A DNA stretch of 35,647 bases from Achromobacter dolens (lineage in GTDB: Bacteria; Pseudomonadota; Gammaproteobacteria; Burkholderiales; Burkholderiaceae_B). The stretch is taken from contig NZ_CADIJW010000054.1 of assembly GCF_902859745.1 (NCBI RefSeq), forward strand, positions 1 to 35,647. The letters are read 5' to 3'. The notes under the pieces were generated by a model. That model saw nothing but the letters and a program-made list of their open reading frames with translations. It was not told the DNA's origin and did no database searches. Each line of letters begins with the position of its first letter. Within the stretch, counting starts at the first letter, position 1. This document shows, piece after piece, positions 4,518 through 19,824 of this stretch. The translations under genes were made by a program, and so were the position numbers.

Positions 4518-4530
4518 GACTAATCTCCTT

Positions 4531-5196: not shown

Positions 5197-5330
5197 TCCC
5201 CGCGGAGATCTCGCGCCGGGCGCGGGCGCTTCGCCGGACGAGCGCTGCCGCCTCGCGCGTGGGCCCGAAAATCGGTCGGCCCGAACGCCTGTGACGGTAT
5301 GCGCCGATGGCGACGACAACGGAGAAAAAC

Positions 5331-5699
5331 ATGTTTGATCATATCGGTTTTGGTGTCAGCGACATGGATCGGAGCCGCGAGTTTTTTCTCAAGGCGTTTG
5401 CGCCGCTCGGCGTAGGGCTGGCCATGGAGGGGCCGGCAAGCATCGGCCTGGGCAGGCAGGGCAAGCCATCGCTGTGGTTGTATGCGCAATCCCGCGTCAG
5501 CGCGCCCTTGCATATCGCCATTGCCGCCGATTCCCGGGAACAGGTGGACTTGTTCTACGCCGCGGCGCTGGCGGCCGGCGGAAAAGACAACGGTCCGCCG
5601 GGCCTGCGTCCTCACTATCATTCCAATTACTATGCGGCTTTCGTGATCGGGCCGGATGGGCACAACGTCGAAGCCGTCTGCCATCGGCCCGTGGATTGA
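5331..5699 (+). CDS. VOC-family (glyoxalase/dioxygenase fold) protein
   Basis: The 122-residue protein is a single vicinal-oxygen-chelate domain made of two beta-alpha-beta-beta-beta modules. The first starts with FDHIGFGVSDMDRSREFF and the second with APLHIAIAADSREQVDLFY. The typical end YYAAFVIGPDGHNVEAVCH follows. Candidate metal ligands are His4 of the first strand, the His of LHIAI and the Glu of NVEAV. Such proteins include glyoxalase I, resistance proteins and many uncharacterised isomerases or lyases; the substrate cannot be told. The ATG at 5331 has GGAG seven bases upstream and was preferred over an ATG at 5307. It stands alone, 134 bases after the CGNR gene. Confidence 0.85.
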   Translation: MFDHIGFGVSDMDRSREFFLKAFAPLGVGLAMEGPASIGLGRQGKPSLWLYAQSRVSAPLHIAIAADSREQVDLFYAAALAAGGKDNGPPGLRPHYHSNYYAAFVIGPDGHNVEAVCHRPVD

Positions 5700-5749
5700 A
5701 TCCGCCGTTGGGGCGGCGATTCGGCGTCCTGCTCGGCCAGCCACGCCGC

Positions 5750-6709
5750 CTACAGCGGCGTCAACAACGCTTGCCCCGCATACAGCCGCCGCGCATTCTC
5801 CAGGAACTTGTCCACCATCCGTTGCATCGCCTCGGGCGACCAGCCAGCGACGTGCGGCGTCACGACCAGATTGGTGAGGTCGGCAAGCCCGGCGGGCAGC
5901 AGCGGCTCGCCTTCATAGACGTCCAGTGCCGCGCCGGCGATGGTCTGGCGGCGCAGCGCGCGTTCCAGGGCGTCGGTGTCGACGACGCTGCCGCGCGCGA
6001 TGTTGATCAGGTATCCCTTCGGGCCGAGCTGCGCGAGCATGGCGTCGTTGATGAGGTGGCGGGTCGAGTCGCCGCCGGGAACGGCCACGAGCAGCACGTC
6101 GGCCCACTGCGCCAGCTCCATCACGGACGCAAAATAGCGATGCGGCGAGCCCGCGCGCGGGCCGCGGTTGTGGTAGCCGACCTGCATCTCGAAGGCCTGC
6201 GCCCGCAACGCCACCTTCTCGCCGATCCCCCCCAGGCCGATGATGCCCAGCTTCTTGCCCGACACATTGGGTGGAAGCGGCAGTTGCGTGCGCCAGGCGC
6301 CTTGTCGCGTCAGTTGGTCCAGGCGCGGAATGCCGCGGATGATGGCGATCATCATGCCCATGGCGTGGTCGGCGACACAACTGTCGTTGGTGCCCGCGCC
6401 GTTGGCGACCGGGATGCCGCGCCGCCGCGCGTGTGCCAGGTCGATTCTCTCGTGGCCGGCGCCCATGGAGTACACCAGCTTCAGGTTGGGCAAGGCGTCC
6501 ATCTGGTCGGCGGTCAGGCCGATGGCGCCGATGGTCATCACCACCTCGACCCGCGGCGCATGGTCGGCGACGGCTTGGGCGTACCGCTCCGGCGTCGGGG
6601 CGAAGACGACCTCGAAATGGCGGGCGATCTGGTCCCGGTCGCCTTGCGTGACCGGATTCATGATGATGAGCAGGGGCTTGGGGCAGGGCATATCGGTGGA
6701 GCAATCCAT
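5750..6709 (-). CDS. D-2-hydroxyacid dehydrogenase (hydroxypyruvate/glyoxylate reductase type)
   Basis: The 319-residue enzyme carries the complete signature of NAD(P)-dependent D-isomer 2-hydroxyacid dehydrogenases. The dinucleotide motif is GLGGIG at 158-163, the substrate arginine is in NIARGSVVD (Arg239), the catalytic Glu is in DVYEGEP (about 268) and the catalytic His is in TPHVAG (His286). The strand-2 end YHNRG lacks the usual NAD-selecting Asp and has Arg instead, which favours NADP(H). It would interconvert 2-keto and 2-hydroxy acids. It is the last gene of the catabolic operon, one base after the GntR stop, so it probably acts on a keto acid released by that pathway. The substrate is not deducible. 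Confidence 0.9.
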   Translation of the reverse strand: MDCSTDMPCPKPLLIIMNPVTQGDRDQIARHFEVVFAPTPERYAQAVADHAPRVEVVMTIGAIGLTADQMDALPNLKLVYSMGAGHERIDLAHARRRGIPVANGAGTNDSCVADHAMGMMIAIIRGIPRLDQLTRQGAWRTQLPLPPNVSGKKLGIIGLGGIGEKVALRAQAFEMQVGYHNRGPRAGSPHRYFASVMELAQWADVLLVAVPGGDSTRHLINDAMLAQLGPKGYLINIARGSVVDTDALERALRRQTIAGAALDVYEGEPLLPAGLADLTNLVVTPHVAGWSPEAMQRMVDKFLENARRLYAGQALLTPL

Positions 6710-6710
6710 G

Positions 6711-7421
6711 TCAGATCTCGGTGTGCCGCGCGACCAGGCCGATGCGCACGTTGCACAGATGCGCCTGCATCGCGGCGCGCGCGGCGTCCGGGTTGCGATC
6801 CAGGATCGCCTGCAGGATGGTCATGTGTTCTTCGCAGCCTGGAATCAGCCGCTCGGGTGCGCCGTTGCGGTCGAAGCACCGCGCCTTGATGCGCAGGTCG
6901 TGGATTGCCTGCGCCATCAGCCTGTTGCCGCTGGCCTGGGCGATGCTGTCGTGCAGCAGGTTGTCGATGCGATGGTTCTCTTCGTGGGTGGTCTGCCGCC
7001 GCCGCCGGATCTCGCTGACCTGCTCCAGCAGGGCAGCGGCTAGCTCCGGCGGCATGCGGGTGGCCGCCGCCGCCGCGGCGTCGCCTTCCAGCAGCACGCG
7101 CATCTGGAATATCTCGAGGTATTGGCGCAGCGTCGGCTCGGGCACGATCAACTGGCCGCGGGCGGTGCGCACGGCGAAGCCGGCGCCGATCAGGCGGCTC
7201 ATCGCTTCGCGCAGCGGCGTGCGCGATACGCCCAGGGCGCTGGCCAGGTTGCGCTCCTGCAGGGGCTGGTTGATCGGCACCTTGCCGAGCTGGATCATGT
7301 CCAGCAGGGTCGAGTAGGCCTCGTCGACCAGGTCGCGCGCGTCCTCGGCGGGCGTCGCGGCGGTCGCCAGGGACGGGCTCGATGGGCTTTCCGTGGCGGG
7401 AAGGATGGACATGGGGATCAT
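6711..7421 (-). CDS. GntR-family regulator, FadR/VanR (FCD) subfamily
   Basis: The 236-residue protein has an N-terminal winged helix at about 30-95 (LQERNLASALGVSRTPLREA is typical of GntR recognition helices). A C-terminal all-helical FCD ligand domain follows. Histidines in LLHDSIAQASGN, CEEHMTIL and AMQAHL are placed as metal/ligand residues. FCD regulators usually sense a carboxylic acid of the pathway they control. The ATG at 7421 overlaps the PxpC stop (ATGA), so the regulator is co-translated with the operon; an alternative ATG lies at 7412. The 23-bp palindrome at 13098-13120 is its best candidate operator. Confidence 0.9.
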   Translation of the reverse strand: MIPMSILPATESPSSPSLATAATPAEDARDLVDEAYSTLLDMIQLGKVPINQPLQERNLASALGVSRTPLREAMSRLIGAGFAVRTARGQLIVPEPTLRQYLEIFQMRVLLEGDAAAAAATRMPPELAAALLEQVSEIRRRRQTTHEENHRIDNLLHDSIAQASGNRLMAQAIHDLRIKARCFDRNGAPERLIPGCEEHMTILQAILDRNPDAARAAMQAHLCNVRIGLVARHTEI

Positions 7422-8419
7422 GGATACAGTAGGGGGAAAATGGGAAAGTTCGGATCGGCCCGCAATGCGGTCTCGCGGGCGCTGATCCAATCCGAATAGT
7501 CGCGCCAACGCCGCACGGCCTGCGCGGGTTCCAGCGCTTCGAAGCGCAGCGGCTGGCCCGGCCGCATCTGCGCCAGTCGCGGCAGGTCGGCCGAAATGAC
7601 GGTCGCTATCTTGGGGTAGCCGCCGGTCGTCTGGCGGTCGTTCATGGCGATCAGGGGCTGCCCCGCGCCCGGGATCTGAATGCTGCCTGCCGCAATGGGA
7701 TCGGTGATGATGTCGGCCCCCCGGGCATGCGCGATGGCGGGACCCGTCAGGCGCAGGCCCATGCGGTCCGACTGCGGGGCCAGGCGATACGTGGCGCCCA
7801 GAAACCGCGCGATTTCGCCGGGCGCGAAATGATCCTGCTGCGGACCGAGGACGACGCCAATCGGCCCGTCCCGGTAGAACCACTGGGCCTCTCGGGCCGT
7901 CAGCCAGCGCCGCGGCGACCGGCGCCGGCCCGCGCCGGTCGCCAGCAGATCGCCGCGGGCCAGCGCGCGTCCGTCCAGGCCCCCGAGCCGGGCGCGCGTC
8001 AGGGTGGAGGCGCTGCCCAGGACCGGCGTGACGGCGATGCCTCCGCCGACAGCCAGATAGCCGCGCACGCCGCGTTCCAGCGGGCCGATGGTCAAGCTGG
8101 CGCCCGCGGGCACGCGGTGCGATTGCCAAGGAGCCAGCGCGCGCGCGGGCGAAGTGCCGATCGCGCCCACGTGCAGTGCGGCGCCGCCGGCGAAGGCGAT
8201 GACGCAGTCCGCGCCCAGCACCCGCAGCCGGCCGCCCAGCAGTGTGAACTCCAGCGCGGCGGCGTCGGGCGCGTTGCCGATGAGCGCGTTGGCAACGCGC
8301 AGTGCGCCCGGATCCATGGCGCCGGAAGGGGGCACGCCCATGTGCTCATGGCCGGGGCGGCCGAGGTCCTGCACCGTGGTCAGCATGCCGGGCGCTTCGA
8401 CGAGCAGTCGCGCGCTCAT
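7418..8419 (-). CDS. pxpC: 5-oxoprolinase subunit C-like protein, biotin-dependent carboxyltransferase fold
   Basis: The 333-residue protein belongs to the PxpC/KipA family, related to the C-terminal half of allophanate hydrolase subunit 2. The N-terminus LLVEAPGMLTTVQDLGRPGH and the following GVPPSGAMDPGALRVANALI are diagnostic. MNDRQTTGGYPKIATVISAD near the C-terminus is also typical. With PxpA and PxpB it forms the ATP-dependent prokaryotic 5-oxoprolinase that opens pyroglutamate to glutamate. The start at 8419 overlaps the PxpB stop by four bases. An upstream open extension to 8575 is just the other frame of pxpB and was rejected. The true substrate may differ in this cluster. Confidence 0.92.
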   Translation of the reverse strand: MSARLLVEAPGMLTTVQDLGRPGHEHMGVPPSGAMDPGALRVANALIGNAPDAAALEFTLLGGRLRVLGADCVIAFAGGAALHVGAIGTSPARALAPWQSHRVPAGASLTIGPLERGVRGYLAVGGGIAVTPVLGSASTLTRARLGGLDGRALARGDLLATGAGRRRSPRRWLTAREAQWFYRDGPIGVVLGPQQDHFAPGEIARFLGATYRLAPQSDRMGLRLTGPAIAHARGADIITDPIAAGSIQIPGAGQPLIAMNDRQTTGGYPKIATVISADLPRLAQMRPGQPLRFEALEPAQAVRRWRDYSDWISARETALRADPNFPIFPLLYP

Positions 8420-9183
8420 GGGTCGACTCCGGGACCCGGTTGCGGACGATGGGCGGGATCGTCCTGCCAGGCGGCAAGGCGTTCGAACGTCGCCTCGTCG
8501 ATGGGCCGGAACACGATCTCGTCGCCAGCCTCGAACAGAAAGGGGTTGGCGTGGCGCAGATCGAAGCTGCGCCACGGCGTGCGGCCGATCAGGTGCCAGC
8601 CGCTGGGGCCAGGCACCGAGGCGATGGCGGTCTGCTGGCCGCCGATGTTGATGCTGCCGGCTGGCGTATGCGCGCGCGGCATGGCCCGGCGCGGGGTGTG
8701 CAGGACGGGATCCAGGCCGCCCAGATAGGCAAAGCCAGGCAGGAATCCCACCATGTAGACGCGGTAGACCGGCGCCGTGTGGCGCGCGATGAGCTGCGCG
8801 GGGTCGAGCTGATGTTGCCGCGCGATGGCCAGCAGATCCTCGCCGTGTTCGCCGCCGTAGCAGACGGGCACCTCCCAGCGGCGCGGGACGGGCGCCGGCG
8901 CCAGCGCGCTGGCGTCCAGGCTGCGCGCGATCAGGTCGCGCACCGCGTCATGTTCGATTGCCAGCGGATCGAAGCCCACCGCCAGCGAGCGGTACGCCGG
9001 CACCACGCTCGACAGGCCGGCGGTCTTGCGCAGGCGCTGCCGCAGGACGTGCGCCAGCGCCAGCACGCGCGCGTTGGTCTCGGCGTCGATGTGGTCGGCG
9101 AATTCGACCAGCAGCGTGCTGTCGCCCGCGGCCACGATGCGCGGCGCGGCCGCGCCGCCGGAAGAAGGCGTGGCGGGCGTCAT
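8416..9183 (-). CDS. pxpB: 5-oxoprolinase subunit B-like protein (PxpB/KipI family)
   Basis: The 255-residue protein shows the PxpB/KipI pattern. An N-terminal domain begins IVAAGDSTLLVEFADHID and contains VVPAYRSLAVGFDP. A cyclophilin-like C-terminal domain carries YRVYMVGFLPGFAYLGGLDP and GSINIGGQQTAIASVPGPSG. It is slightly longer than usual because of an Ala/Pro-rich linker near residues 90-100 and a Pro-rich tail. It works as a heteromer with PxpC, and with PxpA completes ATP-dependent lactam hydrolysis. The ATG overlaps the ATPase gene stop (ATGA), and its own stop overlaps pxpC, so the three genes are translationally coupled. Confidence 0.92.
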   Translation of the reverse strand: MTPATPSSGGAAAPRIVAAGDSTLLVEFADHIDAETNARVLALAHVLRQRLRKTAGLSSVVPAYRSLAVGFDPLAIEHDAVRDLIARSLDASALAPAPVPRRWEVPVCYGGEHGEDLLAIARQHQLDPAQLIARHTAPVYRVYMVGFLPGFAYLGGLDPVLHTPRRAMPRAHTPAGSINIGGQQTAIASVPGPSGWHLIGRTPWRSFDLRHANPFLFEAGDEIVFRPIDEATFERLAAWQDDPAHRPQPGPGVDP

Positions 9184-10211
9184 GCTGCGCTGGCGAATGC
9201 CATGGCGTCGGTCGGATGGAAGCCCCAGGTCACCGCCTGGCCAGGCGTGCGCTGGACCGTGTCCAGGTCCAGCGGCGCATAGGCCAGGATCACCTTGTCA
9301 TAGGCTTCGATGAAGACTTTCCAGTGCGCGCCGCAGAAGGTCGAGGCCACCACCTTGCCGGCATGGCGCTGGTCGCCGCCCGCCAGGCGGTTGCCCAGCC
9401 GCAGGTGTTCGGGCCGCACGCCTAGCACGCCGTCGTTGGCGGGCAGAAAATTGCACTCGCCCAGGAAGCCGGCGACGAACGCGCTGGCGGGCTTGCGGTA
9501 CAGGCTTTCCGGCGAGCCGGCCTCGACGATGCGGCCCTGCTCCAGGATGACGATGCGGTCCGACAGGTTCATCGCCTCTTCCTGGTCATGCGTGACGAAG
9601 ACCACGGTCAGGCCCAATTCCTGGTGCAACCGGCGCAATTGGAGCTGGATCGACTGGCGCAGGTTCTTGTCCAGCGCGCCGAGCGGTTCGTCCATCAGCA
9701 GGATGTCCGGCGTGAACACCAGCGCGCGCGCCAGCGCCACGCGCTGTTGCTGCCCGCCGGAAAGCGCGCCGGGCTTGCGGTCCGCCAGGGGCGCCAGGCT
9801 CACCAGGTCCAGCGCCTCTCCCACGCGGCGGCGGATGTCGTCGTCGTTCAGGCGCCGCATGCGCAACGCAAAGGCGACGTTCTCGAATACGCTCATGTGC
9901 GGAAACAGGGCGTAGTTCTGGAACACCATGCCGATGTTGCGGTCCGCGATCGGGGTGTGCGTGACGTCGCGTCGCCCGATCGTCACGGTGCCGGCGTCCG
10001 GATGCTCGAAGCCGGCGATGATCTTGAGCAGCGTGGTCTTGCCGGAGCCGGACGCGCCCAGCAGCGTGCAGAACTCCCCGCGCGCCACGGTCAGGTCTAC
10101 CTCGGGCAGGGCGACCGAGTCGCCATAGCGCTTGTGGATGCCCGCGAGCGTCAGTTCCTTGCCCTGGCTTTCCGGCGGGCGTTGCGGGAGGATGTCGTTG
10201 GCGATATGCAT
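9180..10211 (-). CDS. ABC importer ATPase, polyamine/iron (PotA-like) type
   Basis: The 343-residue ATPase has all ABC motifs: Walker A GASGSGKTT at 52-60, Q-loop FQNYALFPHM, signature LSGGQQQRVALARAL, Walker B ILLMDEPLGALD and switch VTHDQEEAM. A C-terminal TOBE-like domain follows (contains GVRPEHLRLGN), as in PotA and related CUT1/polyamine importers, where it may take part in substrate or regulatory sensing. It energises the permease encoded one base upstream. Four-base overlap with pxpB ties transport to the hydrolase. The motif set is intact, so it should be functional. Confidence 0.93.
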   Translation of the reverse strand: MHIANDILPQRPPESQGKELTLAGIHKRYGDSVALPEVDLTVARGEFCTLLGASGSGKTTLLKIIAGFEHPDAGTVTIGRRDVTHTPIADRNIGMVFQNYALFPHMSVFENVAFALRMRRLNDDDIRRRVGEALDLVSLAPLADRKPGALSGGQQQRVALARALVFTPDILLMDEPLGALDKNLRQSIQLQLRRLHQELGLTVVFVTHDQEEAMNLSDRIVILEQGRIVEAGSPESLYRKPASAFVAGFLGECNFLPANDGVLGVRPEHLRLGNRLAGGDQRHAGKVVASTFCGAHWKVFIEAYDKVILAYAPLDLDTVQRTPGQAVTWGFHPTDAMAFASAA

Positions 10212-10212
10212 G

Positions 10213-11919
10213 TCAGAGTTCCTTCTTCCTGCCGATCAGCAGGTTGGCGAGCAGGATCAGCGCCGTTGCCCCGACCAGCAGGCAGGAGGCGGAGATCACG
10301 GTGGGATCGAAGTCGTTGGCCAGTCCTTCGAACATCAGCTTGGGGAGGGTGCGGTTGCGTATGGTGGTCAGGAAGAGCGCCATGACCACGTCGTCGAACG
10401 AACTGACGAAGGCAAAGACGGCGCCGCCGATCAGGCTCGGGATCAGCGCCGGAAGCATGACCAGCCGGAACATCGTCGGCCAGGACGCGCCCATGCCCAG
10501 CGCGGCCAGCTCCAGACTGGGGTCCAGGCTGCGCAGCGCCGCGCGCATGGTGATGTAGACATAGGGGGCGGCCAGCACCGTGTGGCCCAGGATGACGGCC
10601 ATGGAATTGGCGACCCAGCCCATGGGCGCGAACAGGTAGTACAGCGCCACCGCCGTGACGATGGCCGGCACCGACATCGGCACGATGAAGAAGGCATCCA
10701 GCCAACCCTGGCGACGCTTGGCCAACCGGCTGACCCCCAGCGCGGCGGCGGTGCCCAGCGCCGTGGCAAGCAGCGTCACGACCACGGCGATCCGCGTGCT
10801 GGAGGCCAGGGCCGACAGCCATTTGCCGTCGGTGAAGAAGTTCTCGTACCAGCGCAGGCCGTAGCTGGGCGGCGGGAAAATCGGGAAATCCGTGGTGCCA
10901 AAGCTCATCGGGATGACCACGATGATGGGCAGCAGCAGGAACATCGCGCACGCCACGCCCAGAAGGGCCGACACCCGTCCGCCCGGCGTGCGGCGATATC
11001 CCGTGTGGTTGCTGCCCTTGCCGGAACTGGCGCTGATCAGGTTGTTCAGGCCGAACAGCCGGTTGAACAACCACAGCGACAGCAGCACCGTGGCGAGCAG
11101 CACGCCCGCCAGGGCCGAGGCCAGCCCCCAGTTGAGTTCTTCGGTGATGTTGTGCGAAATCAGTTCCGCCGCCATGCGCTGGGCCGGCCCGCCCATCAGC
11201 GACGGCGTGATGTAGTAGCCCACCGCGTTCATGAAGACGATGATGCCGCCGGCGACCGCGCCGGGGCTGGTCAGCGGCAGGATGACCTTGCTGAAGATAC
11301 CCGCGGAGCCGGCGCCCAGGCCTTGCGCGGCCTGCACCAGGCTGCCGTCCAGGGACCGGAACGAGGCATACAGCGGCAGCACCACGAAGGGCATCAGCAC
11401 GTGCGTCATGCCCACCATCACGCCGGTGAAGTTGTAGAGGAACGCCATGGGCTGGTCGAGGATGCCCACCGTCGTCAACAGGGTGTTCAACGGGCCGTTC
11501 TTGCCCAGCAGCGCGATCCATGCCGAAGTGCGCACCAGCGCGCTGGACCAGAAGGGCAGCAGCACCGCGAAGAACAGTACGCGCGCCACCGTGGGCGATA
11601 CGGTCGCCATCAGGTAGGCCAGCGGGTAGCTCAGCACCACGCATGCCAGCGTGACCGCGGCGGCGATCGTGAATGTGTTGACCAGCACGATGCGGTAGAT
11701 CGGCGTGTCCAGCAGGTGGCGGTAGTGCGCCAGCGTCAGGCCGCCATCTTCGCCCTTGAAGCCGTTGCCGAGCAGCCCCGCGATCGGGCCGGCGAAGAAC
11801 AGCAGCAGGAACAGCAACAGCGGCAGCGCGGCGAGGGCCGCGACGCGGCCGCGCCGCGATGCCGCGCCAGGGCGGCGTCTGGCGACAGGCAGGGGGAGGG
11901 CTTCGGTGCTCGTAGTCAT
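10213..11919 (-). CDS. ABC permease, fused PotB-PotC type
   Basis: The 568-residue protein is two binding-protein-dependent permease domains in one chain. The first half (about 28-295) has six or so membrane helices and the cytoplasmic EAA loop LVQAAQGLGAGSAGIFSKVI. A linker (about 296-315, containing SSGKGSNHTGYRR) leads into the second half (about 316-565) with the EAA loop LELAALGMGASWPTMFRLVM. Polyamine-type systems normally have two separate permeases of about 280 residues; fusion replaces the heterodimer. The N-terminal 25 residues are cytoplasmic and Arg-rich. It sits between receptor and ATPase genes, with one base to the ATPase start. The ribosome binding site is weak. Confidence 0.92.
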   Translation of the reverse strand: MTTSTEALPLPVARRRPGAASRRGRVAALAALPLLLFLLLFFAGPIAGLLGNGFKGEDGGLTLAHYRHLLDTPIYRIVLVNTFTIAAAVTLACVVLSYPLAYLMATVSPTVARVLFFAVLLPFWSSALVRTSAWIALLGKNGPLNTLLTTVGILDQPMAFLYNFTGVMVGMTHVLMPFVVLPLYASFRSLDGSLVQAAQGLGAGSAGIFSKVILPLTSPGAVAGGIIVFMNAVGYYITPSLMGGPAQRMAAELISHNITEELNWGLASALAGVLLATVLLSLWLFNRLFGLNNLISASSGKGSNHTGYRRTPGGRVSALLGVACAMFLLLPIIVVIPMSFGTTDFPIFPPPSYGLRWYENFFTDGKWLSALASSTRIAVVVTLLATALGTAAALGVSRLAKRRQGWLDAFFIVPMSVPAIVTAVALYYLFAPMGWVANSMAVILGHTVLAAPYVYITMRAALRSLDPSLELAALGMGASWPTMFRLVMLPALIPSLIGGAVFAFVSSFDDVVMALFLTTIRNRTLPKLMFEGLANDFDPTVISASCLLVGATALILLANLLIGRKKEL

Positions 11920-11927
11920 GGCTTCGG

Positions 11928-11951
11928 GACGCCGGCGCGCGCGCCGGCGTC
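11928..11951 (-). promoter_or_regulatory. 24-bp perfect palindrome between receptor and permease genes
   Basis: GACGCCGGCGCG and CGCGCCGGCGTC form a perfect 24-bp palindrome directly after the receptor gene and before the permease start. No U-tract follows. Stem-loops at this place in ABC operons commonly protect the upstream receptor mRNA or reduce read-through, giving more receptor than permease; that role is inferred here. Confidence 0.55.
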
Positions 11952-11971
11952 GGGGTAGGTAAGCAGGAAGA

Positions 11972-13021
11972 TCAGCGGGCGCGGACCTGGTTGTAGCGCT
12001 CCGTGATGGCGGGGCCGTTCGCGTCCCAGAACTCCGAATTCAGGAAGGTGCTGTGCTTGAGGCGTTCGGACGTCGACGGCAGGCGCTCCAGGCGCTTGGC
12101 GTCGATCAGGGGCAGGGCCTTCTCGGTGGTCGGGCCGTAGGCGATGTATTTGCTGAATTCGGCCTGGTGTTCGGGCTGGATCATGTAGTTCAGCAGTTTG
12201 ATTGCCGCATCGCGATTGGGCGAACCCTTGACGATGGCGAAGTAGCCGACCTGGGCGATGCTGTCGCCCCAGCCCATGGCGATGGGCAGGCCCGAGTCGA
12301 TGCCGGCCTGGAAGCGGCCGTTCCAGCCCAGCGCCATCACCACTTCGCCGCTCGCCAGCGCGTTCACCGGTTCCGCGCCGTTCTTCCACCAGCGGGCGAC
12401 ATGGGGCTTGATCTCGTCGATCTTCTGGAAGGCGCGGTCCAGGCCCTCGGGCGTCGCCAGCACCTTGTACACGTCGGCAGGCGCGACGCCGTCGGCGATG
12501 AGCGCCGCCTCGATCACCGTCGCGGGGTCGTCCTGCAGGGTGCGCTTGCCCGGGAATTTCTTCACGTCCCAGAAGTCGGCGAACGTGCTGGGCTGCGGCT
12601 TCCCCGCCGGGAAGGCCTGGGTCGAGAAGCCGACGTTGGTGGCGAAGATCTCCGACGGCACCCCGTAGTCGTTGCGGGCGTTGGGGATCACGTGGTCCTG
12701 CTTGACCATGTCCGGCGTGATCTTCTCGAAGACGCCGAGCTTGATGCCGCGAGTCAGGCGGGCGCTGTTCTCGGTCACCACGTCCCACGTGATCGACTTG
12801 GTGTCGATCATGGCGCGGATCTTCGCGACCTGCGGATCCGTGTCCTCATGCACCGTGATGCCGGTCTCCTTGGAGAAGGGCTTGAGCCAGGCGTCGCGGA
12901 TGGCGCCCTGGTAGTTGCCTCCCCAGCTCGCGAAATTGAGTTCGTTCGCCTGGGCCGCGCCCGTTGCCATCACCAGCGCGGCGGCAACGGCGCACGTGGC
13001 GTTCTTCCATGTGAAATTCAT
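11972..13021 (-). CDS. ABC importer periplasmic binding protein, PotD-like
   Basis: The 349-residue protein begins with a Sec signal peptide, probably cleaved after AQA at residue 25. The mature part starts NELNFASWGGNYQGAIRDAW, a classical opening of polyamine/iron/amino-acid-like receptors of the PotD/IdiA cluster. Later segments IDTKSITWDVVTENSARLTR and LNYMIQPEHQAEFSKYIAYG are also typical. It should deliver substrate to the fused permease. Genes around it suggest a lactam, ureide or D-amino-acid derivative rather than putrescine. The ATG at 13021 has GGAG upstream; a longer open frame to 13135 lies in the regulatory spacer and has no leader-like features. Confidence 0.92.
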   Translation of the reverse strand: MNFTWKNATCAVAAALVMATGAAQANELNFASWGGNYQGAIRDAWLKPFSKETGITVHEDTDPQVAKIRAMIDTKSITWDVVTENSARLTRGIKLGVFEKITPDMVKQDHVIPNARNDYGVPSEIFATNVGFSTQAFPAGKPQPSTFADFWDVKKFPGKRTLQDDPATVIEAALIADGVAPADVYKVLATPEGLDRAFQKIDEIKPHVARWWKNGAEPVNALASGEVVMALGWNGRFQAGIDSGLPIAMGWGDSIAQVGYFAIVKGSPNRDAAIKLLNYMIQPEHQAEFSKYIAYGPTTEKALPLIDAKRLERLPSTSERLKHSTFLNSEFWDANGPAITERYNQVRAR

Positions 13022-13097
13022 TGTTGGGACTCCATTCCATAAGAAAAGCGCGTTGGGTCGATCCGCCCGATCCCGGGCATTTCGCCTCGGCAATTCC

Positions 13098-13133
13098 TTG
13101 GCATGCAAATTGCATGCCAACGGTATGCCAAAC
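13098..13133. promoter_or_regulatory. Perfect 23-bp palindrome plus half-site, putative GntR operator
   Basis: TTGGCATGCAA at 13098-13108, a central A, and TTGCATGCCAA at 13110-13120 make a perfect inverted repeat of 11-base arms. A further half-site TATGCCAA follows at 13124-13131. It lies in the 144-base spacer between the divergent receptor and pxpA genes, 45 bases before the pxpA ATG. GntR/FCD proteins bind short palindromes of this size, and the operon encodes one, so it is the natural candidate to bind here. Confidence 0.75.
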
Positions 13134-13165
13134 ATTCAAATCCGCTTTTTTCGGGAGTGCTTCAG

Positions 13166-13942
13166 ATGCTCGACGTAGATCTCAATTCCGACCTGGGAGA
13201 GAGCTTCGGCCCCTACAGGATCGGCGCCGACGAGGCCATGCTGGACCTCATCACGTCGGCCAACGTGGCCTGCGGTTTTCACGGCGGCGATGCGTCGGTG
13301 ATGCACCAAACCGCGGCATCCGCCCTGAAACGGGGCATCGACGTGGGCGCCCATCCGGGCTTCAACGACTTGTGGGGATTCGGCCGGCGCAAGATCATCG
13401 GCGACAGTCCGCAGACCCTCGGCGACATGCTCGCGTACCAGATCGCCGCGATGCAGGGCATGGCCCGCGTGGCCGGCCATCGGGTGACGCATGTGAAGGT
13501 GCACGGCGCCCTTGCCACGCAGGCTTTCGAGGATCGCGCGCTGTCCGAGGCGCTGGCCTGCGCCATGCGCGCGCTGGACCCGGATCTGGTGCTGGTCTGC
13601 ACGCCCCATAACGAAACCGAGCGCGCCGCGCGCCGCGCGGGCATCCGCGTGGCCTGCGAGGTATTCGCCGATCGCCTTTATGGCGACAACGGCCTGACGC
13701 TGCCGCGCAGCGAGCCGGGCGCCGTGATCCACGACCCGGCCGCGGCGGCCGCGCAGGCGCTGCGCATGGTGCGCGAACAGGCAATCCGCACGGTGGGCGG
13801 AAAAGTCATCGCGATGCCGGTGCACACGATCTGCGTGCATGGAGACAACCCGCAGGGCGTGGAGATTGCGCGCGCCGTGCGTCTGGCGCTATTGGAAGAG
13901 GGCGTGCGGCTGCGGCCCATCTCGCAACTGGATTTTCAGTAG
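13166..13942 (+). CDS. pxpA: 5-oxoprolinase subunit A-like protein (LamB/YcsF family)
   Basis: The 258-residue protein has the LamB/YcsF beta-barrel signature: VDLNSDLGESFGPYRIG at the start, ITSANVACGFHGGDASVM, DVGAHPGFNDLWGFGRRKI, VKVHGAL and HTICVHGDNPQG near the end. In 5-oxoprolinase PxpA acts with PxpB and PxpC to open a lactam ring using ATP. Compared with E. coli PxpA as I recall it, the HPSFPDR and HVKPHG positions read HPGFNDL and HVKVHG, so this is a different branch of the family. It is divergent from the genes carrying pxpB and pxpC. The ATG at 13166 has GGGAG upstream; an extension to 13103 runs into the operator and was rejected. Confidence 0.9.
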   Translation: MLDVDLNSDLGESFGPYRIGADEAMLDLITSANVACGFHGGDASVMHQTAASALKRGIDVGAHPGFNDLWGFGRRKIIGDSPQTLGDMLAYQIAAMQGMARVAGHRVTHVKVHGALATQAFEDRALSEALACAMRALDPDLVLVCTPHNETERAARRAGIRVACEVFADRLYGDNGLTLPRSEPGAVIHDPAAAAAQALRMVREQAIRTVGGKVIAMPVHTICVHGDNPQGVEIARAVRLALLEEGVRLRPISQLDFQ

Positions 13943-14874
13943 GCGGCGCCTTGCTGCGCCTGCCTGATCAGGGCCTTGATCACCGTGGCAAAGCGCTTGG
14001 TGGTGCTGGACAGCGGGCTGCTGGCCGGATGCAGCAGGTGGATGGCGTGGCCCAGCGCCGGTTCGGTGGGCAGCAGGATGAAATCCTTGCGGAAGTTCGG
14101 GTGATAGCCGAACGACTCGATCAGCGCCACCCCCACGCCCTGTCGCACCAGCGCCAGCGCTTCGGGCGTGGAGCGGATTTCGATCTGGGGCTGCACGGGC
14201 ACGGGGCCGGAATGCAGAAAGCGGCTGGCCAGGCGCCCGAATGGCGTGTCCGCGCCATAGCCGATCAGCAGATGGCCTTGCAGGTCTTCGGCGCGCACGT
14301 GGCTGCGCTTGGTCAGCGGATGGCCGCGCGGCACGGCGCAGCCCAGCCAACCCTGGCCGATTTCCTCGCTGACGATATTGGCGTTGACCGGCGGCGGCAT
14401 CGAGGCGATGCCGAAGTCGGCCTGTCCGAGGAGCAGGTGCGGCAGCAGCGCGTCGAAGGCCAGCGGCCGATAGCGGATCGGCGTATCGGGATGCCGTTCG
14501 CGGAATTTCTGGATCGCGTGGGGGATGAGCCACTCGCTGAAACTGGGGCTCGAGACCAGGCTTACCGCGCCCGCCGCGCCCGCGCCCAGGGCGCCCGCCA
14601 GCTCGTTGAAGCGGCTGACGCGGCCGAAGATCTCCTCGGCTTCGGCAAACAGGCGGCGGGCCTCTGGCGTGGGATGCAGCCTTCCCTTGACGCGCTCGAA
14701 CAGCCGATAGCGCAGGCGGTTTTCGGCCGAGGCCAGCAGCCGGCTCACGGCGGGCTGCGTGACCGACAGCATGCGGCCCGCTTCACTGAGCGAGCCGGTC
14801 AGCATCACGGCATGGAAAACCTCGATCTGGCGGAGCGTCAGCGCGCCAGGCGTGGCGGGGAGCGGGCAGGACAT
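13936..14874 (-). CDS. LysR-family transcriptional regulator
   Basis: The 312-residue protein has an N-terminal winged helix (ALTLRQIEVFHAVMLTGSLS, then MLSVTQPAVSRLLASAENRL) and a periplasmic-binding-like effector domain (about 95-300). The latter contains LVSSPSFSEWLIPHAI and VRQGVGVALIESFG. The AESLRLEVL-like opening of this subgroup is reminiscent of regulators of amino-acid and opine catabolism, but the effector cannot be named. It converges on pxpA, overlapping its 3' end by seven bases, and is divergent from the N-carbamoyl-D-amino-acid amidohydrolase operon, which is its likely target. Confidence 0.92.
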   Translation of the reverse strand: MSCPLPATPGALTLRQIEVFHAVMLTGSLSEAGRMLSVTQPAVSRLLASAENRLRYRLFERVKGRLHPTPEARRLFAEAEEIFGRVSRFNELAGALGAGAAGAVSLVSSPSFSEWLIPHAIQKFRERHPDTPIRYRPLAFDALLPHLLLGQADFGIASMPPPVNANIVSEEIGQGWLGCAVPRGHPLTKRSHVRAEDLQGHLLIGYGADTPFGRLASRFLHSGPVPVQPQIEIRSTPEALALVRQGVGVALIESFGYHPNFRKDFILLPTEPALGHAIHLLHPASSPLSSTTKRFATVIKALIRQAQQGAAY

Positions 14875-15171
14875 AAGGCGGGCGTCGAGGACGGGAATGC
14901 GTTGCCCGCCATTTTATTCCCCGGGGAATCCGCGCGGCGCGCGCGCCGCCGATTTCCCATGATGTTTTGCGCGCAGTCCATAACTAAATGCACAGTCCTG
15001 TTGGCTTTTCCGATGGCCGGGTGCGTAGGAAAAGATATTTGTTTTCATGGGCTTGCGCGCGCCGTGGCGCGTCGTCGGCGGCGGCGCGGCCAAGCGTGGG
15101 CCGTCTTTTCGCGCGGCCGACGCCGCGTCATGCTGCCGGTGAATTCGCAACCTCTCTCTCAGGATTGATTC
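14875..15171. promoter_or_regulatory. Divergent LysR / carbamoylase regulatory spacer
   Basis: This 297-base spacer should hold the promoters of the LysR gene and of the D-amino-acid operon. CAGTCC occurs twice, at 14974-14979 and 14993-14998, 19 bases apart, flanking the AT-rich ATAACTAAATG. This is the only A/T-rich island and the best candidate for a regulator-binding and promoter site. I could not define a convincing -35/-10 pair. Confidence 0.4.
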
Positions 15172-16161
15172 ATGTCCCGCATCGTCACCGTCGCTGCCGC
15201 CCAATTGGGCCCGATCCAACGCGCCGAGGGGCGCGATGTGGCGATCGACCGCATGATCCGGCTGTTGGAGCGGGCGCGTCAGCGCGGCGCCCAGGTCGTC
15301 GTGTTCCCGGAACTGGCGTTGACCACCTTCTTCCCGCGCTGGTATTGCGAAGACCTGGACGAGGCGGATGGCTGGTTCGAAACCAGTCTGCCTTCGCCCG
15401 CCACGCAGCCGCTGTTCGATGCCATCAAGCGCTACGGGCTGATGGTCTACCTCGGCTACGCCGAACTGGCCTGGGAGCCCGATGAGCACGGCGTGGTGCG
15501 CAAGCGCCGCTTCAATACCTCGGTCGTCATCGCGCCCAATGGCGAGGTCGTCCTGAAGTACCGCAAGGTGCATCTTCCCGGCCATGCGGAATTCGCCGAG
15601 CATCGCCAGGTGCAGCATCTCGAAAAGCGCTATTTCGAAGTCGGCAACCTGGGCTTCCCGGTGGTGCGCGCGCCCGTCGCGCCCGGCGTGGACGCCAATC
15701 TGGGCATGCTGATCTGCAATGACCGCCGCTGGCCCGAGGCCTGGCGCGTGCTCGGGTTGCAGCAGGTCGAGCTGGTCATGCTGGGCTACAACACGCCCAG
15801 CCGCAACCAGGACAACCGCGGCTTCGAGGCGCACCATCTGCGGGTGCTGCATTCGCATCTCTCCATCCAGGCGGGCTGCTACCAGAACGCCACCTTCGCC
15901 GCGGCGGTCGCCAAGGCCGGCACGGAAGACGGCCACGAACTGCTGGGCCATTCCATCATCGTCAACCCGCAAGGCGAAATCATTGCCATGGCCGCCACCT
16001 GGGACGATGAGCTGATCGTCGCCGATTGCGACCTGGACTTGTGCGAGCTGGGGCGCAGCACCGTTTTCAACTTCGCCAAGCATCGCCGTCCCGAAGCCTA
16101 CGGCCGCCTCATCGAACAGACCGGCAGCGTCGCGCCCGCCGTCTGGACTCCCTCGGCGTAA
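15172..16161 (+). CDS. N-carbamoyl-D-amino-acid amidohydrolase (D-carbamoylase)
   Basis: This 329-residue nitrilase-superfamily enzyme should hydrolyse N-carbamoyl-D-amino acids to D-amino acid, CO2 and ammonia. The triad is complete: Glu47 in VFPELALTTFFPRW, Lys132 in KYRKVHLPGH and Cys182 in LICNDRRWPEAW. The family-specific features FFPRW, FNTSVVIAPNG, QHLEKRYFE, GYNTPSRN and LLGHSIIV closely follow the Agrobacterium D-carbamoylase. Length is normal (about 304-330). A clear AGGATTGATTC site precedes the ATG. It is first in an operon with a dehydratase, a Bug receptor and a D-aminoacylase. No cyclic-imidase-type hydantoinase is present in the window. Confidence 0.93.
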   Translation: MSRIVTVAAAQLGPIQRAEGRDVAIDRMIRLLERARQRGAQVVVFPELALTTFFPRWYCEDLDEADGWFETSLPSPATQPLFDAIKRYGLMVYLGYAELAWEPDEHGVVRKRRFNTSVVIAPNGEVVLKYRKVHLPGHAEFAEHRQVQHLEKRYFEVGNLGFPVVRAPVAPGVDANLGMLICNDRRWPEAWRVLGLQQVELVMLGYNTPSRNQDNRGFEAHHLRVLHSHLSIQAGCYQNATFAAAVAKAGTEDGHELLGHSIIVNPQGEIIAMAATWDDELIVADCDLDLCELGRSTVFNFAKHRRPEAYGRLIEQTGSVAPAVWTPSA

Positions 16162-16195
16162 CGCGCCTGACCCCTTCATCCCGCAGGACAGCCCC

Positions 16196-17224
16196 ATGAC
16201 CGCGATGCCTCTACCCACGACCATCGAGCACGAACTGCTCGGCACCCTGCGTGTGCCGCAATTGCGCGATGTGACCGCCGCCGCCGAGCGGCTGACGCCC
16301 TACGTGCGTCGCACCATGCTGCTGCGCTCGCCCGCCCTGGACGAACGGGCGCAGGCGCCCATCTGGCTGAAGCTGGAAAACCTCCAGGTGACGGGCTCGT
16401 TCAAGGCCCGTGGCGCATTCAATGCCCTGTTGAACATGGACCCGGCGCAGCGCGAGCGCGGCGTGGTCGCCTACTCGACCGGCAACCACGGCCAGGCCGT
16501 CGCCTGGGCCAGCCGTTGCCTGCGCGTGCCCGCCACCATCGTGATGCCGGTCGATGCGCCGGAGAACAAAGTGGAAAAGGCGCTGCGCCATGGCGCCAGG
16601 GTCGTGCGCTATGACCGCACGCGGGAAAGCCGCGAGGAAATCGGCCTGCGGCTGCTGGCCGAGACCGGCGCCACGCTGCTGCCGCCCGGCGATCATCCCG
16701 ATGTACTGGCCGCCCAGGGCACGCTGGCCCTGGAAGCGTTGCAGGACCTGCCCGCCGCGGCCCGCGCCAACCTGGGCCTGTTCGCCACGCCGTGCGGCGG
16801 CGGCGGCATGGCCGCGGGCTGTTCGCTGGTGTTGCGCGAACTGGCGCCGCAGGCGCGGATCGTGGCCGTCGAGCCGCGCGAATTCGATGACACGGTGCGC
16901 TCGCTGGCCTCGGGCCGGCGCGAAACCAACCCGGCCGGCGCCAAGACCCTGTGCGATGCGCTGCAGGCTGCGACGCCCGCCGAACTGCCCTACGCGATCA
17001 ACCGCCGCGCCTTGAGCGCCGCCGTGTCGGTGAGCGACGAGGAAGTCGTCGCCGCCATCCGGTTCGCGCTGGAGGAATTGCGGCTCGTGGTCGAGCCGGG
17101 CGGGGCGGTGGCGCTGGCCGCGCTGCTCGCGGGCAAGCTGTCGGCCGAAGGCCGTGATGCGGTCATCGTGCTGTCTGGCGGAAACATCGATCTGCCGCTA
17201 TTGCGTCAGATCGCCCTGGACTGA
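16196..17224 (+). CDS. PLP-dependent threonine/serine dehydratase-like enzyme
   Basis: The 342-residue protein is a fold-type II PLP enzyme. The Schiff-base lysine is Lys70 in TGSFKARGA, the substrate loop is STGNHGQAVAWAS, the phosphate-binding Gly loop is CGGGGMAAG and the C-terminal VLSGGNIDL completes the site. Members eliminate water or ammonia from serine, threonine, hydroxyaspartate or diaminopropionate to give keto acids, and some act on D-forms or racemise. The classical SSGNHAQ motif reads STGNHGQ here. It has no ACT regulatory domain, so it looks catabolic. Placed between two D-amino-acid-releasing enzymes, it may consume or invert their product; the substrate is inferred. Confidence 0.88.
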   Translation: MTAMPLPTTIEHELLGTLRVPQLRDVTAAAERLTPYVRRTMLLRSPALDERAQAPIWLKLENLQVTGSFKARGAFNALLNMDPAQRERGVVAYSTGNHGQAVAWASRCLRVPATIVMPVDAPENKVEKALRHGARVVRYDRTRESREEIGLRLLAETGATLLPPGDHPDVLAAQGTLALEALQDLPAAARANLGLFATPCGGGGMAAGCSLVLRELAPQARIVAVEPREFDDTVRSLASGRRETNPAGAKTLCDALQAATPAELPYAINRRALSAAVSVSDEEVVAAIRFALEELRLVVEPGGAVALAALLAGKLSAEGRDAVIVLSGGNIDLPLLRQIALD

Positions 17225-17362
17225 GCGTTCGCGCCGCAGTCCGGAACGGCGGCGCCGCAAGGCCCCGCCGCGCAGTGCCGGCGTCCGTGAGGCGTCCAGC
17301 AAGACCCGCGAGGGCCGCAGAGTCCGAGCGGATACACCTATAACAGTCCAAGGAAGAAAACC

Positions 17363-18349
17363 ATGTCCACGTATCAAAGCAGCGCCAAGCGCTGGCTCGC
17401 GGCCGCGAGCGCGGTGCTGGCCCTGACCGCGGCATCCGCCGCGCAGGCCGCCTATCCCGAGCATCCCGTCACGATCGTCGTGCCGTTCAACACCGGCACG
17501 ACGCCCGACCTCGTGTCGCGCCTGCTGGCCGCCGAAATGGCCAAGCAGACCGGCGGCAATTTCGTGGTGCAGAACCGCACCGGCGCCTCCGGCATCATCG
17601 GCACGCAGGCCGTGGCCAATGCCGCGCCCGACGGCTACACCATCGGCTTTGCCAACGTGGCCACGCTGGCCATCAACCAGAGCCTCTACGCCAAGCTGTC
17701 CTATGACGCCGACAAGCAGCTCGCGCCCGTCGCCCTGACCGGCTCGGTGCAGAACCTGTTGGCCGTGCGCCCGGGCTTGAACGTCAAGAGCGTGGCCGAC
17801 CTGATCGCCATGGCCAGGAAAGACCCGGGCAAGCTGGTCGTCGCGTCCGGCGGCAACGGCACCACCGGGCACCTGAGCGCGGCTATGTTCAGCGCGATGG
17901 CGGGCGTGGAATTCATGCACGTGCCGTACAAGGGCGGCGTCGAGGCGGACCTGGCCGTGTTGCGCGGCGAGGCCGATCTGGTGTTCGACAACATTTCGTC
18001 CATTGCCGGATTCGTGGAGCAGGGCAAAGTGGTGCCGCTGGCGGTGACCGACCTGCGGCGCGACCCGACCATGCCCGAGCTGGCGACGCTGGACGAGCAG
18101 GGCCTGAAAGGCTATCGCGCGGTGGCCTGGACCGGCTTTGTCGCGCCCGCGGGCACCGATCCCCAGGTGCTGGATTACCTGAACGATGCCTTCAACAAGG
18201 CGTTGCAATCGCCGCAGGTGCAGGAAAAGCTCAAGAGCATGGCCTACGTGCCGAACGTGGGACCGCGCCAGCAGCTCTTTGACCGCGCGCATGCCGAGCG
18301 TCCCGTCTGGGCGCAAGTGATCAAGCAAGCCAACGTCAGGATCGACTGA
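17363..18349 (+). CDS. Bug-family (TctC-like) periplasmic binding receptor
   Basis: The 328-residue protein has a Sec signal peptide, probably cut after AQA at residue 29. The mature sequence begins YPEHPVTIVVPFNTGTTPDL, the usual opening of Bug/TctC receptors, followed by VQNRTGASGIIGTQAVANAA and FMHVPYKGGVEADLAVLRGE. These receptors serve tripartite tricarboxylate transporters or act as orphan sensors, and are greatly expanded in Bordetella and relatives. No TctA/TctB membrane genes are adjacent, so this is an orphan receptor that would need a partner elsewhere. An AAGGAAG site precedes the ATG. The ligand is probably the amide or acid handled by the flanking enzymes. Confidence 0.93.
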   Translation: MSTYQSSAKRWLAAASAVLALTAASAAQAAYPEHPVTIVVPFNTGTTPDLVSRLLAAEMAKQTGGNFVVQNRTGASGIIGTQAVANAAPDGYTIGFANVATLAINQSLYAKLSYDADKQLAPVALTGSVQNLLAVRPGLNVKSVADLIAMARKDPGKLVVASGGNGTTGHLSAAMFSAMAGVEFMHVPYKGGVEADLAVLRGEADLVFDNISSIAGFVEQGKVVPLAVTDLRRDPTMPELATLDEQGLKGYRAVAWTGFVAPAGTDPQVLDYLNDAFNKALQSPQVQEKLKSMAYVPNVGPRQQLFDRAHAERPVWAQVIKQANVRID

Positions 18350-18354
18350 ACCTC

Positions 18355-19824
18355 ATGGACCTCGAACGCTACGACCTGCTGATCCGCGGCGGCACGGTGA
18401 TCGATGGAACGGGCGCGGACCGCCTCCGCGCCGATGTGGGCGTGCGCGGCGGCCGCATTGCGGCCGTCGGCGACCTGGGCGACGCCATCGCCGGCCAGGT
18501 GCTGGAGGCTGGCGGCCGCGTCGTGGCGCCGGGCTTCATCGATACGCATACCCATGACGACCGCTACCTGTCGATCGATCCCGGCATGCCCGCCAAGCTG
18601 AGCCAGGGCGTCACCACCGTCATCACCGGCAATTGCGGCATCAGCCAGGCGCCGTGGCGTTCCGGCTGGCGCAGCGACGTGCCTGCGCCGGTCAACCTGT
18701 TGGGCAACGACGTTGGCGACTTTCCCTACGAGACGTTCGGCGCCTACCTGGACAACCTGGACAGGAATCCGCCCGCCGTCAACGCGGCATGCCTGGTGGG
18801 CCACACCTCGCTGCGCGCCGCCGCGATGGACGACCTGGACCGGCCCGCGACCGAGGCGGAAATCGAACATATGCAGGCGCTGCTGCGCGAAGCCATGCTG
18901 AGCGGCGCCATCGGCCTGTCCTCCGGCACCGCGTATCCCGCCGCCATGCCGGCGACGCTCGATGAACTGGTCGCGGTGGCCAGCGTGCTGCGCGAGCATG
19001 GCGGGCTGTACGCCAGCCACATCCGCGACGAAGGCGACCGCATCTTCGCCGCGCTGGACGAGGCCTTCGCCGTGGGGGCCGCGGGCGATGCGCCCGTGCT
19101 GATCTCGCACCACAAGCTGATCGGCCCGCGCAACCATGGCCGCTCGGTGCAGACGCTCGCGCATATCGACAAGGCTGGCCAGCGCCAGGAGGTGGCCCTG
19201 GACTGCTACCCCTATGTCGCCGGCTCGACCATCCTGCGCAAGGACCGCCTGGCGGTGTCCAGCCGCGTCATCGTGACCAAGTCGGTCCCGTATCCGCAAT
19301 ACGCTGGACGCGACCTGGACGACATCGCCCGCGACATGGGCCTGAGCCCCGAAGCCGCGGTCGATGCGTTGCAGCCGGCCGGCGCCATCTACTTCATCAT
19401 GGACGAAGCCGACGTCGAGCGCATCCTGGCCTATCCGGGCACCATGATCGGATCCGATGGCATGCCGCACGACCCCGCGCCGCACCCGCGCCTGTGGGGC
19501 ACGTTCCCGCGCGTGCTCGGCCACTATTGCCGCGACGTCGGGCTGTTCAGCCTGGAACAGGCGGTTCACAAGATGACGGGCAAGCCGGCGGCGTACTTCC
19601 GGCTGCCCGGCCGCGGGCGCATCGCGCCAGGCTACGCCGCTGACGTGGTCGTCTTCGATGCGGATCGGATCAAGGACGTGGCCACCTGGGCATCCCCGAC
19701 GAGCCAGGCCGAGGGCATCGATTATGTCCTTGTCAACGGCGAGATTGCCTGGGCGTTCGGGGCAGGGTCGGGCAGGCGCAGCGGCCAGGTGCTCCGGCCT
19801 CGGGACGCCCGCGCGCGGGCGTGA
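18355..19824 (+). CDS. N-acyl-D-amino-acid deacylase (D-aminoacylase)
   Basis: The 489-residue zinc amidohydrolase closely resembles the D-aminoacylase of Alcaligenes/Achromobacter as I recall it. Visible sites are the HTHDD motif (His65, His67), the metal-bridging Cys94 in TGNCGIS, SHIRDEGDRIF, the metal His of ISHHKLIG and the catalytic Asp of GSDGMPHDP. YPYVAGSTIL and HPRLWGTFPRVLGHYCRD are also characteristic. It removes acyl groups from N-acyl-D-amino acids. It follows the Bug receptor gene by five bases, so both are one unit. It ends in an 18-bp GC palindrome overlapping the stop region (19805-19822). Confidence 0.93.
   Translation: MDLERYDLLIRGGTVIDGTGADRLRADVGVRGGRIAAVGDLGDAIAGQVLEAGGRVVAPGFIDTHTHDDRYLSIDPGMPAKLSQGVTTVITGNCGISQAPWRSGWRSDVPAPVNLLGNDVGDFPYETFGAYLDNLDRNPPAVNAACLVGHTSLRAAAMDDLDRPATEAEIEHMQALLREAMLSGAIGLSSGTAYPAAMPATLDELVAVASVLREHGGLYASHIRDEGDRIFAALDEAFAVGAAGDAPVLISHHKLIGPRNHGRSVQTLAHIDKAGQRQEVALDCYPYVAGSTILRKDRLAVSSRVIVTKSVPYPQYAGRDLDDIARDMGLSPEAAVDALQPAGAIYFIMDEADVERILAYPGTMIGSDGMPHDPAPHPRLWGTFPRVLGHYCRDVGLFSLEQAVHKMTGKPAAYFRLPGRGRIAPGYAADVVVFDADRIKDVATWASPTSQAEGIDYVLVNGEIAWAFGAGSGRRSGQVLRPRDARARA

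Follow-up and report, generated by a model that had tools for sequence, protein, structure and literature searches.

The PxpABC 5-oxoprolinase of Bacillus subtilis, Escherichia coli and Corynebacterium glutamicum is composed of three subunits, and homologs of all three (PF03746, PF02682 and PF02626) co-occur in a 35,647-nucleotide stretch of Achromobacter dolens DNA (NZ_CADIJW010000054.1, contig C54 of genome G000, 6.29 Mb in size), hereafter referred to as the window. Like the window genes, pxpTABC of C. glutamicum is described with a GntR regulator (PxpR) and a transporter nearby (PMC13274462). An order of reactions like the one proposed here, namely ATP-dependent ring opening followed by a carbamoylase, is that of HyuABC with the HyuC carbamoylase of Pseudomonas sp. 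NS671 (PMC8453981). HyuAB belongs to the hydantoinase/oxoprolinase family, and a member of this family, caprolactamase, is given in that paper as not similar to PxpABC. In the window, the pxp genes abut an operon that encodes a D-carbamoylase. Based on sequence comparison with relatives, we tentatively propose, with slightly more doubt than conviction, that the window represents an undescribed PxpABC variant that would open a cyclic ureide, its putative substrate, to an N-carbamoyl amino acid.

Gene organization of the locus

Genes were called from open reading frames (ORFs) and profile scans (Pfam and NCBIfam), followed by sequence matches to the PDB. The genes of the locus are the following.

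5750..6709, minus strand: D-2-hydroxyacid dehydrogenase (HADH), whose gene ends the pxpBC operon (PF02826/PF00389)
6711..7421, minus strand: GntR/FCD regulator (PF00392 and PF07729)
7418..8419, minus strand: PxpC-like subunit (CT_A_B; PF02626, 298 bits), start set by the ATGA overlap
8416..9183, minus strand: PxpB-like subunit (CT_C_D) with the variant motif QTAIASVPGPSGW (PF02682; TIGR00370, 168.4 bits, cut-off 145.55)
9180..10211, minus strand: PotA-like ATPase of an ATP-binding cassette (ABC) importer (NCBIfam)
10213..11919, minus strand: permease of the ABC importer, two domains in one chain (PotB and PotC profiles on successive halves)
11972..13027, minus strand: periplasmic binding protein (PF13416; PDB 4i1d, the gamma-aminobutyric acid (GABA) sensor 6dgv, 6hly and 5l9g)
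13163..13942, plus strand: PxpA-like subunit (LamB/YcsF; PF03746, 299.5 bits; NF003814, 336.8 bits, cut-off 226)
13936..14874, minus strand: LysR regulator adjoining the D-carbamoylase operon (NCBIfam), also beside the D-carbamoylase in relatives
15172..16161, plus strand: D-carbamoylase of the nitrilase superfamily (PF00795; PDB 8i99, 6lei, 1erz and 1fo6)
16196..17224, plus strand: pyridoxal-5'-phosphate (PLP) dehydratase/racemase-type enzyme (serine/threonine-dehydratase type; PF00291)
17363..18349, plus strand: TctC/Bug solute receptor (PF03401)
18355..19824, plus strand: D-aminoacylase (PDB 1m7j, E 1.3e-164)

All of the genes listed in an earlier note on this DNA were recovered by the ORF and profile scans and the PDB matches. 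In transcription order, the minus-strand operon comprises the genes for the binding protein, two-domain permease, ATPase, PxpB, PxpC, GntR and HADH, with ATGA overlaps at three junctions (ATPase-pxpB, pxpB-pxpC and pxpC-GntR) and a 1 nt gap between GntR and HADH. The importer had been described as fused with pxpB and pxpC; it does share their operon, but the fusion is between the two permease domains. The pxpA gene is divergent from the binding protein gene, with 135 bp between them, and is convergent with and overlaps the LysR gene. By PDB sequence matches, the binding protein is related to proteins that bind agropine, mannopine and GABA.

The plus-strand operon consists of the D-carbamoylase, PLP enzyme, TctC receptor and D-aminoacylase genes. 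The D-carbamoylase matched the N-carbamoyl-D-amino-acid hydrolase 8i99 at E 2.8e-109, and FPE, YRK and CNDRR are common to both aligned proteins, which we take to be the catalytic Glu, Lys and Cys with the following RR of D-carbamoylases. Judged by such matches, the predicted identities of the D-carbamoylase and the D-aminoacylase are solid. The PLP enzyme scored 307.8 bits with the threo-3-hydroxyaspartate ammonia-lyase profile, under its cut-off of 452. Pfam scans of 10 proteins of the region gave no HyuA or HyuB domain (for the permease, ATPase and LysR only NCBIfam profiles were used, and no search for these domains extended to the rest of the genome).

The window PxpABC belongs to a variant class

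The window PxpB carries QTAIASVPGPSGW where E. coli PxpB has QTGVYPLATPGGW, that is, PSGW vs. the canonical YP..PGGW, without an aromatic residue at the canonical Tyr position. PxpB motifs were sorted into PSGW, canonical and in-between classes, as defined by this analysis, and the 107 aligned PxpB sequences fell into 34, 60 and 13, respectively. PSGW was present in PxpB of all five Achromobacter loci and of all 13 amidase-linked loci found (see below). On the window PxpC, the PxpC equivalog NF045499 scored 222.1 bits vs. a cut-off of 500, which was not passed; the cut-off of TIGR00724 was passed. The only positions separating the linked from the canonical sets were PxpA P148 (17/17 linked, 0/53 canonical) and PxpB 189 and 194, of which the last is circular, since the motif defines the class. 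An early count of 11 lost among 43 invariant PxpB positions, made against 10 other sequences, was superseded by later alignments.

The same genome carries a canonical pxpBCA on contig C9, with the PxpB motif QTVIYPNRLPGGW, which would cover 5-oxoproline. A third pxpA lies on contig C30 (locus L072, 9996 and 13308), where a pxpC-like gene was seen ~2.6 kb downstream of it and not adjacent.

PSGW loci are repeatedly linked to carbamoylase-family amidases

Gene neighbourhoods reaching ~9–10 kb to either side, or to the contig end where this came first, were compared for chromosomal pxp loci (319 genomes of the phylum gave 94 PxpB places, of which 80 were used, the window and the 13 lowest being left out) and for plasmid loci (161 matching records, 15 being taken from the top 21 and 5 from the 140 below; records H3, H4, H5, H16, H18 and H19 were left out because their species or genus was already represented). 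Two genomes, G813 and G836, entered via a PxpA search outside the PxpB survey. A plasmid search for PxpC at E 1e-50 gave no matches although PxpC adjoins PxpB there, the limit being too strict.

An M20 amidase of the hydantoinase/carbamoylase family was found in 12 of the 28 surveyed PSGW loci vs. none of the 72 others (67 chromosomal and 5 plasmid), and the PxpA search added a 13th locus with the amidase (L220 of G813). In detail, the 15 plasmid PSGW loci had, within 6 kb, the M20 amidase in 11, HADH in 13 and an M24 protein in 13, and a D-amino-acid transaminase in 9, vs. no M20, no HADH and one transaminase in the five plasmid non-PSGW loci. Among the 13 chromosomal PSGW loci, HADH was found in eight (3.1–7.1 kb off, none adjacent to pxpB) and M20 in one, vs. 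HADH in three, transaminase in three and M20 in none of the 67 chromosomal non-PSGW loci. The order pxpB>pxpC>GntR>HADH, as in the window, recurred in 10 of the 15 plasmid PSGW loci, and the M20 gene then follows in eight of these ten. All five M20 proteins scanned, out of the 13, passed the TIGR01879 hydantoinase/carbamoylase cut-off (241–285 vs. 204 bits); the one compared with the PDB was closest to the N-carbamoyl-L-amino acid hydrolase 3n5f. D-amino-acid-transaminase genes adjoin pxpA in Salipiger, Agrobacterium, R. tumorigenes and Shinella, and the one transaminase scanned passed the D-amino-acid transaminase subfamily NF005209 (362.6 bits, cut-off 320). No D-carbamoylase matched near any of the 100 surveyed loci; the nitrilase-type D-carbamoylase of Achromobacter and the M20 amidase belong to unrelated families. 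Ten annotated proteins, nine of them around the amidase-free PSGW loci L225 and L226, included no carbamoylase; sulfite reductase, RraA-like, sugar and other genes were seen instead.

Two further observations were made on plasmids. One M24 protein of the PSGW plasmid loci (L338–L352) was scanned, and it resembles the ectoine hydrolase DoeA at 271 bits, under the cut-off of 575. A Lactiplantibacillus plasmid (L356) holds pxpB, pxpC, biotin carrier, biotin carboxylase, hydro-lyase, pxpA and an NRAMP-type transporter in one cluster, a biotin-linked pxp variant.

In a PxpB+PxpC tree (IQ-TREE, 51 of the 107 rows), the five Achromobacter loci formed one group, whose sister was the amidase-linked locus L259 of G795 (99/97). 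This locus has both M20 and HADH, and its GntR is 47% identical to the window GntR. M20-linked loci were spread over four positions in the tree, namely L259, L220 with L339, L338, and a group of rhizobial and rhodobacterial loci; two groups of 4 and 7 rows were without M20. An old M20 link with later losses would be, in our view, the simplest history.

Linkage of the D-carbamoylase operon to pxpABC

The D-carbamoylase was found at 77–100% identity in 11 of 121 family genomes, and a window-type PxpA (93–100%) in three of these 11, all of the window's genus, with the next best PxpA in the sample at 49%. The six genus genomes in the sample had both operons (three) or neither (three). From a D-carbamoylase scan of 84,980 species, the best 80 loci were used, many with short flanks, and PxpABC lay beside the D-carbamoylase in two of them, Achromobacter sp. 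MYb9 and A. animicus, whose gene block is 73–96% identical to that of the window. Loci with both operons thus numbered five, all Achromobacter (the window, L052, L054, MYb9 and A. animicus), and the operons abut. The unit of LysR, D-carbamoylase, PLP enzyme, Bug receptor and D-aminoacylase (window 13936–19824) was kept in six further family genomes (L057–L062).

The earlier note had argued from the absence of a hydantoinase. This holds for the window, where the sole TIGR02033 match of the contig is the D-aminoacylase (37 bits), but not for the genome: contig C58 carries a D-hydantoinase at 4210–5568 (TIGR02033, 535 bits, cut-off 393), directly followed by a second D-carbamoylase (5728–6642) that is 49% identical to the window D-carbamoylase. 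The argument was dropped. A D-hydantoinase also lies near the D-carbamoylase in the relatives G036, G011, L079 and L080; over the best 80 loci, this holds for 22.

The HADH gene gave one connection between the two contexts. The window HADH is 66% identical to that of G036, the closest outside the genus in the family sample, and in G036 an 85% identical D-carbamoylase, a 79% identical LysR and this HADH stand together with the D-hydantoinase, while in Achromobacter the same kinds of D-carbamoylase, LysR and HADH sit with PxpABC instead. This swap, a single case, fits PxpABC replacing a hydantoinase. In the stretches read around the HADHs of G103 (64%) and of G126 and G250 (57–59%), no D-carbamoylase matched. 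HADH was also considered as a common ortholog bridging all loci, which the 30–37% identity to the operon HADHs of PSGW relatives ruled out; it bridges to G036 only.

As a separate observation, D-carbamoylases of 62–75% identity occur in Acetobacteraceae and other Rhodospirillales (L082–L124), some loci having two near each other. Among the 49 D-carbamoylase loci that were clustered, an ErtD-like amidohydrolase was present in 21 and a protein of the Asp/Glu/hydantoin racemase family in 14, with one representative of each annotated. The representative amidohydrolase scored 499.9 bits with the profile of the hydantoin-5-propionate amidohydrolase ErtD, under the cut-off of 600. These loci possibly represent a route from hydantoin-5-propionate to D-glutamate.

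Proposed function and alternative explanations

Because two unrelated carbamoylase families accompany the variant, and hydrolysis of N-carbamoyl compounds is their common chemistry, PxpABC would be expected to make an N-carbamoyl compound, i.e. to open a cyclic ureide. In the proposed mechanism, PxpBC would activate (phosphorylate) a five- or six-membered cyclic ureide resembling 5-oxoproline, and PxpA would hydrolyse the activated ureide to an N-carbamoyl amino acid; candidates are hydantoin, 2-oxoimidazolidine-4-carboxylate and hydantoin-5-acetate. The second of these is the aza-analogue of 5-oxoproline and an obvious first candidate; it is also a ligand of the animal enzyme, although no paper was found to confirm the latter. 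A carbamoylase would then free the amino acid. In Rhizobiaceae, Rhodobacterales and others this would be the M20 amidase encoded within the operon or next to it, and in Achromobacter most likely the adjoining D-carbamoylase. The carbon skeleton would be processed by HADH, joined in many relatives by a D-amino-acid transaminase, the GntR protein would sense the substrate, and the importer, whose type varies, would bring it in. Gene content, gene order, motif class, tree position and repeated linkage are observed; the ring opening, its substrate and stereochemistry, and the D-carbamoylase as the Achromobacter partner are what we infer. With somewhat more reserve, the variant may be regarded as an ATP-dependent, hydantoinase-like cyclic-ureide hydrolase rather than a 5-oxoprolinase, unrelated to the metal-dependent hydantoinases and to HyuAB, and coupled by lineage to two unrelated carbamoylases, a nitrilase-type D-carbamoylase and another HADH having replaced in Achromobacter the M20 amidase and HADH of its relatives.

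That PxpABC feeds the carbamoylase had been proposed from the window, together with a D-configured product and roles for the dehydratase and dehydrogenase, which, like the substrate, stay putative. As first stated the idea was weak, its linkage being weak and a hydantoinase lying elsewhere in the genome; the comparison with relatives revived it, with a non-canonical PxpABC and a variant found repeatedly near an M20 carbamoylase-family enzyme and HADH, and by these sequence comparisons it appears better supported than the window alone could show.

Several observations weigh against the cyclic-ureide proposal. The two operons had been expected to be linked in related genomes, and largely they are not: the D-carbamoylase operon, a separate unit with its own LysR, occurs without window-type PxpABC in 8 of the 11 family-sample genomes, and in the remaining 78 of the best 80 loci (53–80% identity) pxpABC was not within the available flanks. 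Two-operon linkage was dropped as direct proof, and the adjacency in the window, taken alone, could be chance or island co-inheritance, because the D-carbamoylase occurs elsewhere without pxpABC, in other contexts. The M20 amidase is present in only 1 of 13 chromosomal PSGW loci; neither M20 nor D-carbamoylase matched within ~10 kb of the 12 remaining ones, which comprise seven of family f88, four of a second group, and L304. In the f88 loci, HADH does not adjoin pxpB but lies 5.6–7.1 kb away. Few families make up most of the plasmid set, which is dominated by Rhizobiaceae and Rhodobacterales. PSGW is not a clean clade marker, as 33 of 34 PSGW rows fall in a 42-row clade that holds nine other-motif rows, with L304 outside. 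The window HADH is just 30–37% identical to the operon HADHs of PSGW relatives, and therefore another kind of HADH occupies this position in the window. Known M20-family carbamoylases are L-selective, ill-matched with a D-carbamoylase, and we know of no PSGW member with a measured activity.

Alternatively, the window may hold an ordinary operon for 5-oxoproline uptake and hydrolysis (importer, GntR sensor, and PxpABC yielding glutamate) that simply adjoins an independent salvage operon for N-carbamoyl- and N-acyl-D-amino acids. In favour of this, the D-carbamoylase operon stands alone in relatives and no carbamoylase lies near 12 of 13 chromosomal PSGW loci. The window PxpA and PxpB also pass their NCBIfam cut-offs, and pxpTABC of C. 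glutamicum with its GntR regulator PxpR and linked transporter is a demonstrated 5-oxoproline system (PMC13274462). We nevertheless consider this explanation rather unlikely, in view of the second, canonical pxpABC in the genome, the different PxpB motif, a PxpC far under the equivalog cut-off (222 vs. 500), and the carbamoylase-family amidase linked in 12/28 PSGW vs. 0/72 other loci.

Two further explanations were considered. The variant could open 5-oxo-D-proline, or another D-amino-acid lactam, to a D-amino acid for the transaminase and HADH, with the carbamoylases serving other substrates of a D-amino-acid scavenging island; the D-aminoacylase and D-carbamoylase of the window and the transaminase, in 9/15 PSGW plasmid loci, next to pxpA in the four cases named above and passing NF005209 in the one case scanned, agree with this. 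It appears quite unlikely, as transaminase matches occur also in 1/5 plasmid and 3/67 chromosomal non-PSGW loci, the presence of two unrelated carbamoylase families with the variant is left unexplained, and known M20 members are not D-specific. Alternatively, the operon might be a peptide or ectoine-like catabolic one, in which M20/M24 would be a peptidase or ring hydrolase and PxpABC would remove pyroglutamate or another lactam by-product. The M24 proteins within 6 kb in 13/15 PSGW plasmid loci, the DoeA profile matches of one of them, and ABC genes that by size and order look like peptide importers near the loci in Terrarubrum and R. tumorigenes point in this direction; on the other side, the five scanned M20 proteins pass the hydantoinase/carbamoylase cut-off and neither M24 nor M20 matched in the window, which makes this very unlikely.

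The opening of a cyclic ureide is thus the reading that we tentatively retain. In the annotated records that were seen, most PxpA and PxpB homologs bear the name of a 5-oxoprolinase subunit; should a recognisable variant act on a different ring, many of these names would be wrong. If true, the proposal would bring to three the mechanistically distinct ways of opening hydantoin-like rings, the new one being of use in making D- or L-amino acids. With the PSGW motif and the operon at hand, the question can be tested directly on three small proteins.

Other features of the window

Near the contig end, a glycosyl hydrolase 108 protein with a peptidoglycan-binding domain (671–1201) is probably a phage endolysin remnant. 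A FliC/FljB-type flagellin of 606 aa (20617–22437) adjoins a LysE-type exporter, and a chaperone-usher fimbrial cluster with fimbrial subunit and outer-membrane usher genes occupies 28755–32833.

Comparison with known systems

A link of PxpABC to a carbamoylase or to hydantoin was not found in the open-licence literature, judged by titles and abstract openings. Compared with the PxpABC 5-oxoprolinase, the window differs in PSGW for YP..PGGW, in a PxpC under the equivalog cut-off and in the linked HADH and carbamoylase genes, and it has an ABC importer in place of a secondary carrier. The carbamoylase HyuC is of the M20 type. The window D-carbamoylase belongs with the D-carbamoylases of the hydantoinase process, where they act with a D-hydantoinase, but no such cyclic amidohydrolase is present in the window. 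Ectoine degradation proceeds through DoeA/EutD, DoeB, a transaminase and a dehydrogenase. The variant is alike in its series of ring opener, deacylase, transaminase and dehydrogenase, and the M24 protein of a relative resembles DoeA; it differs in having PxpABC and a carbamoylase-family enzyme in place of DoeB, and in the window no M24 protein accompanies them.

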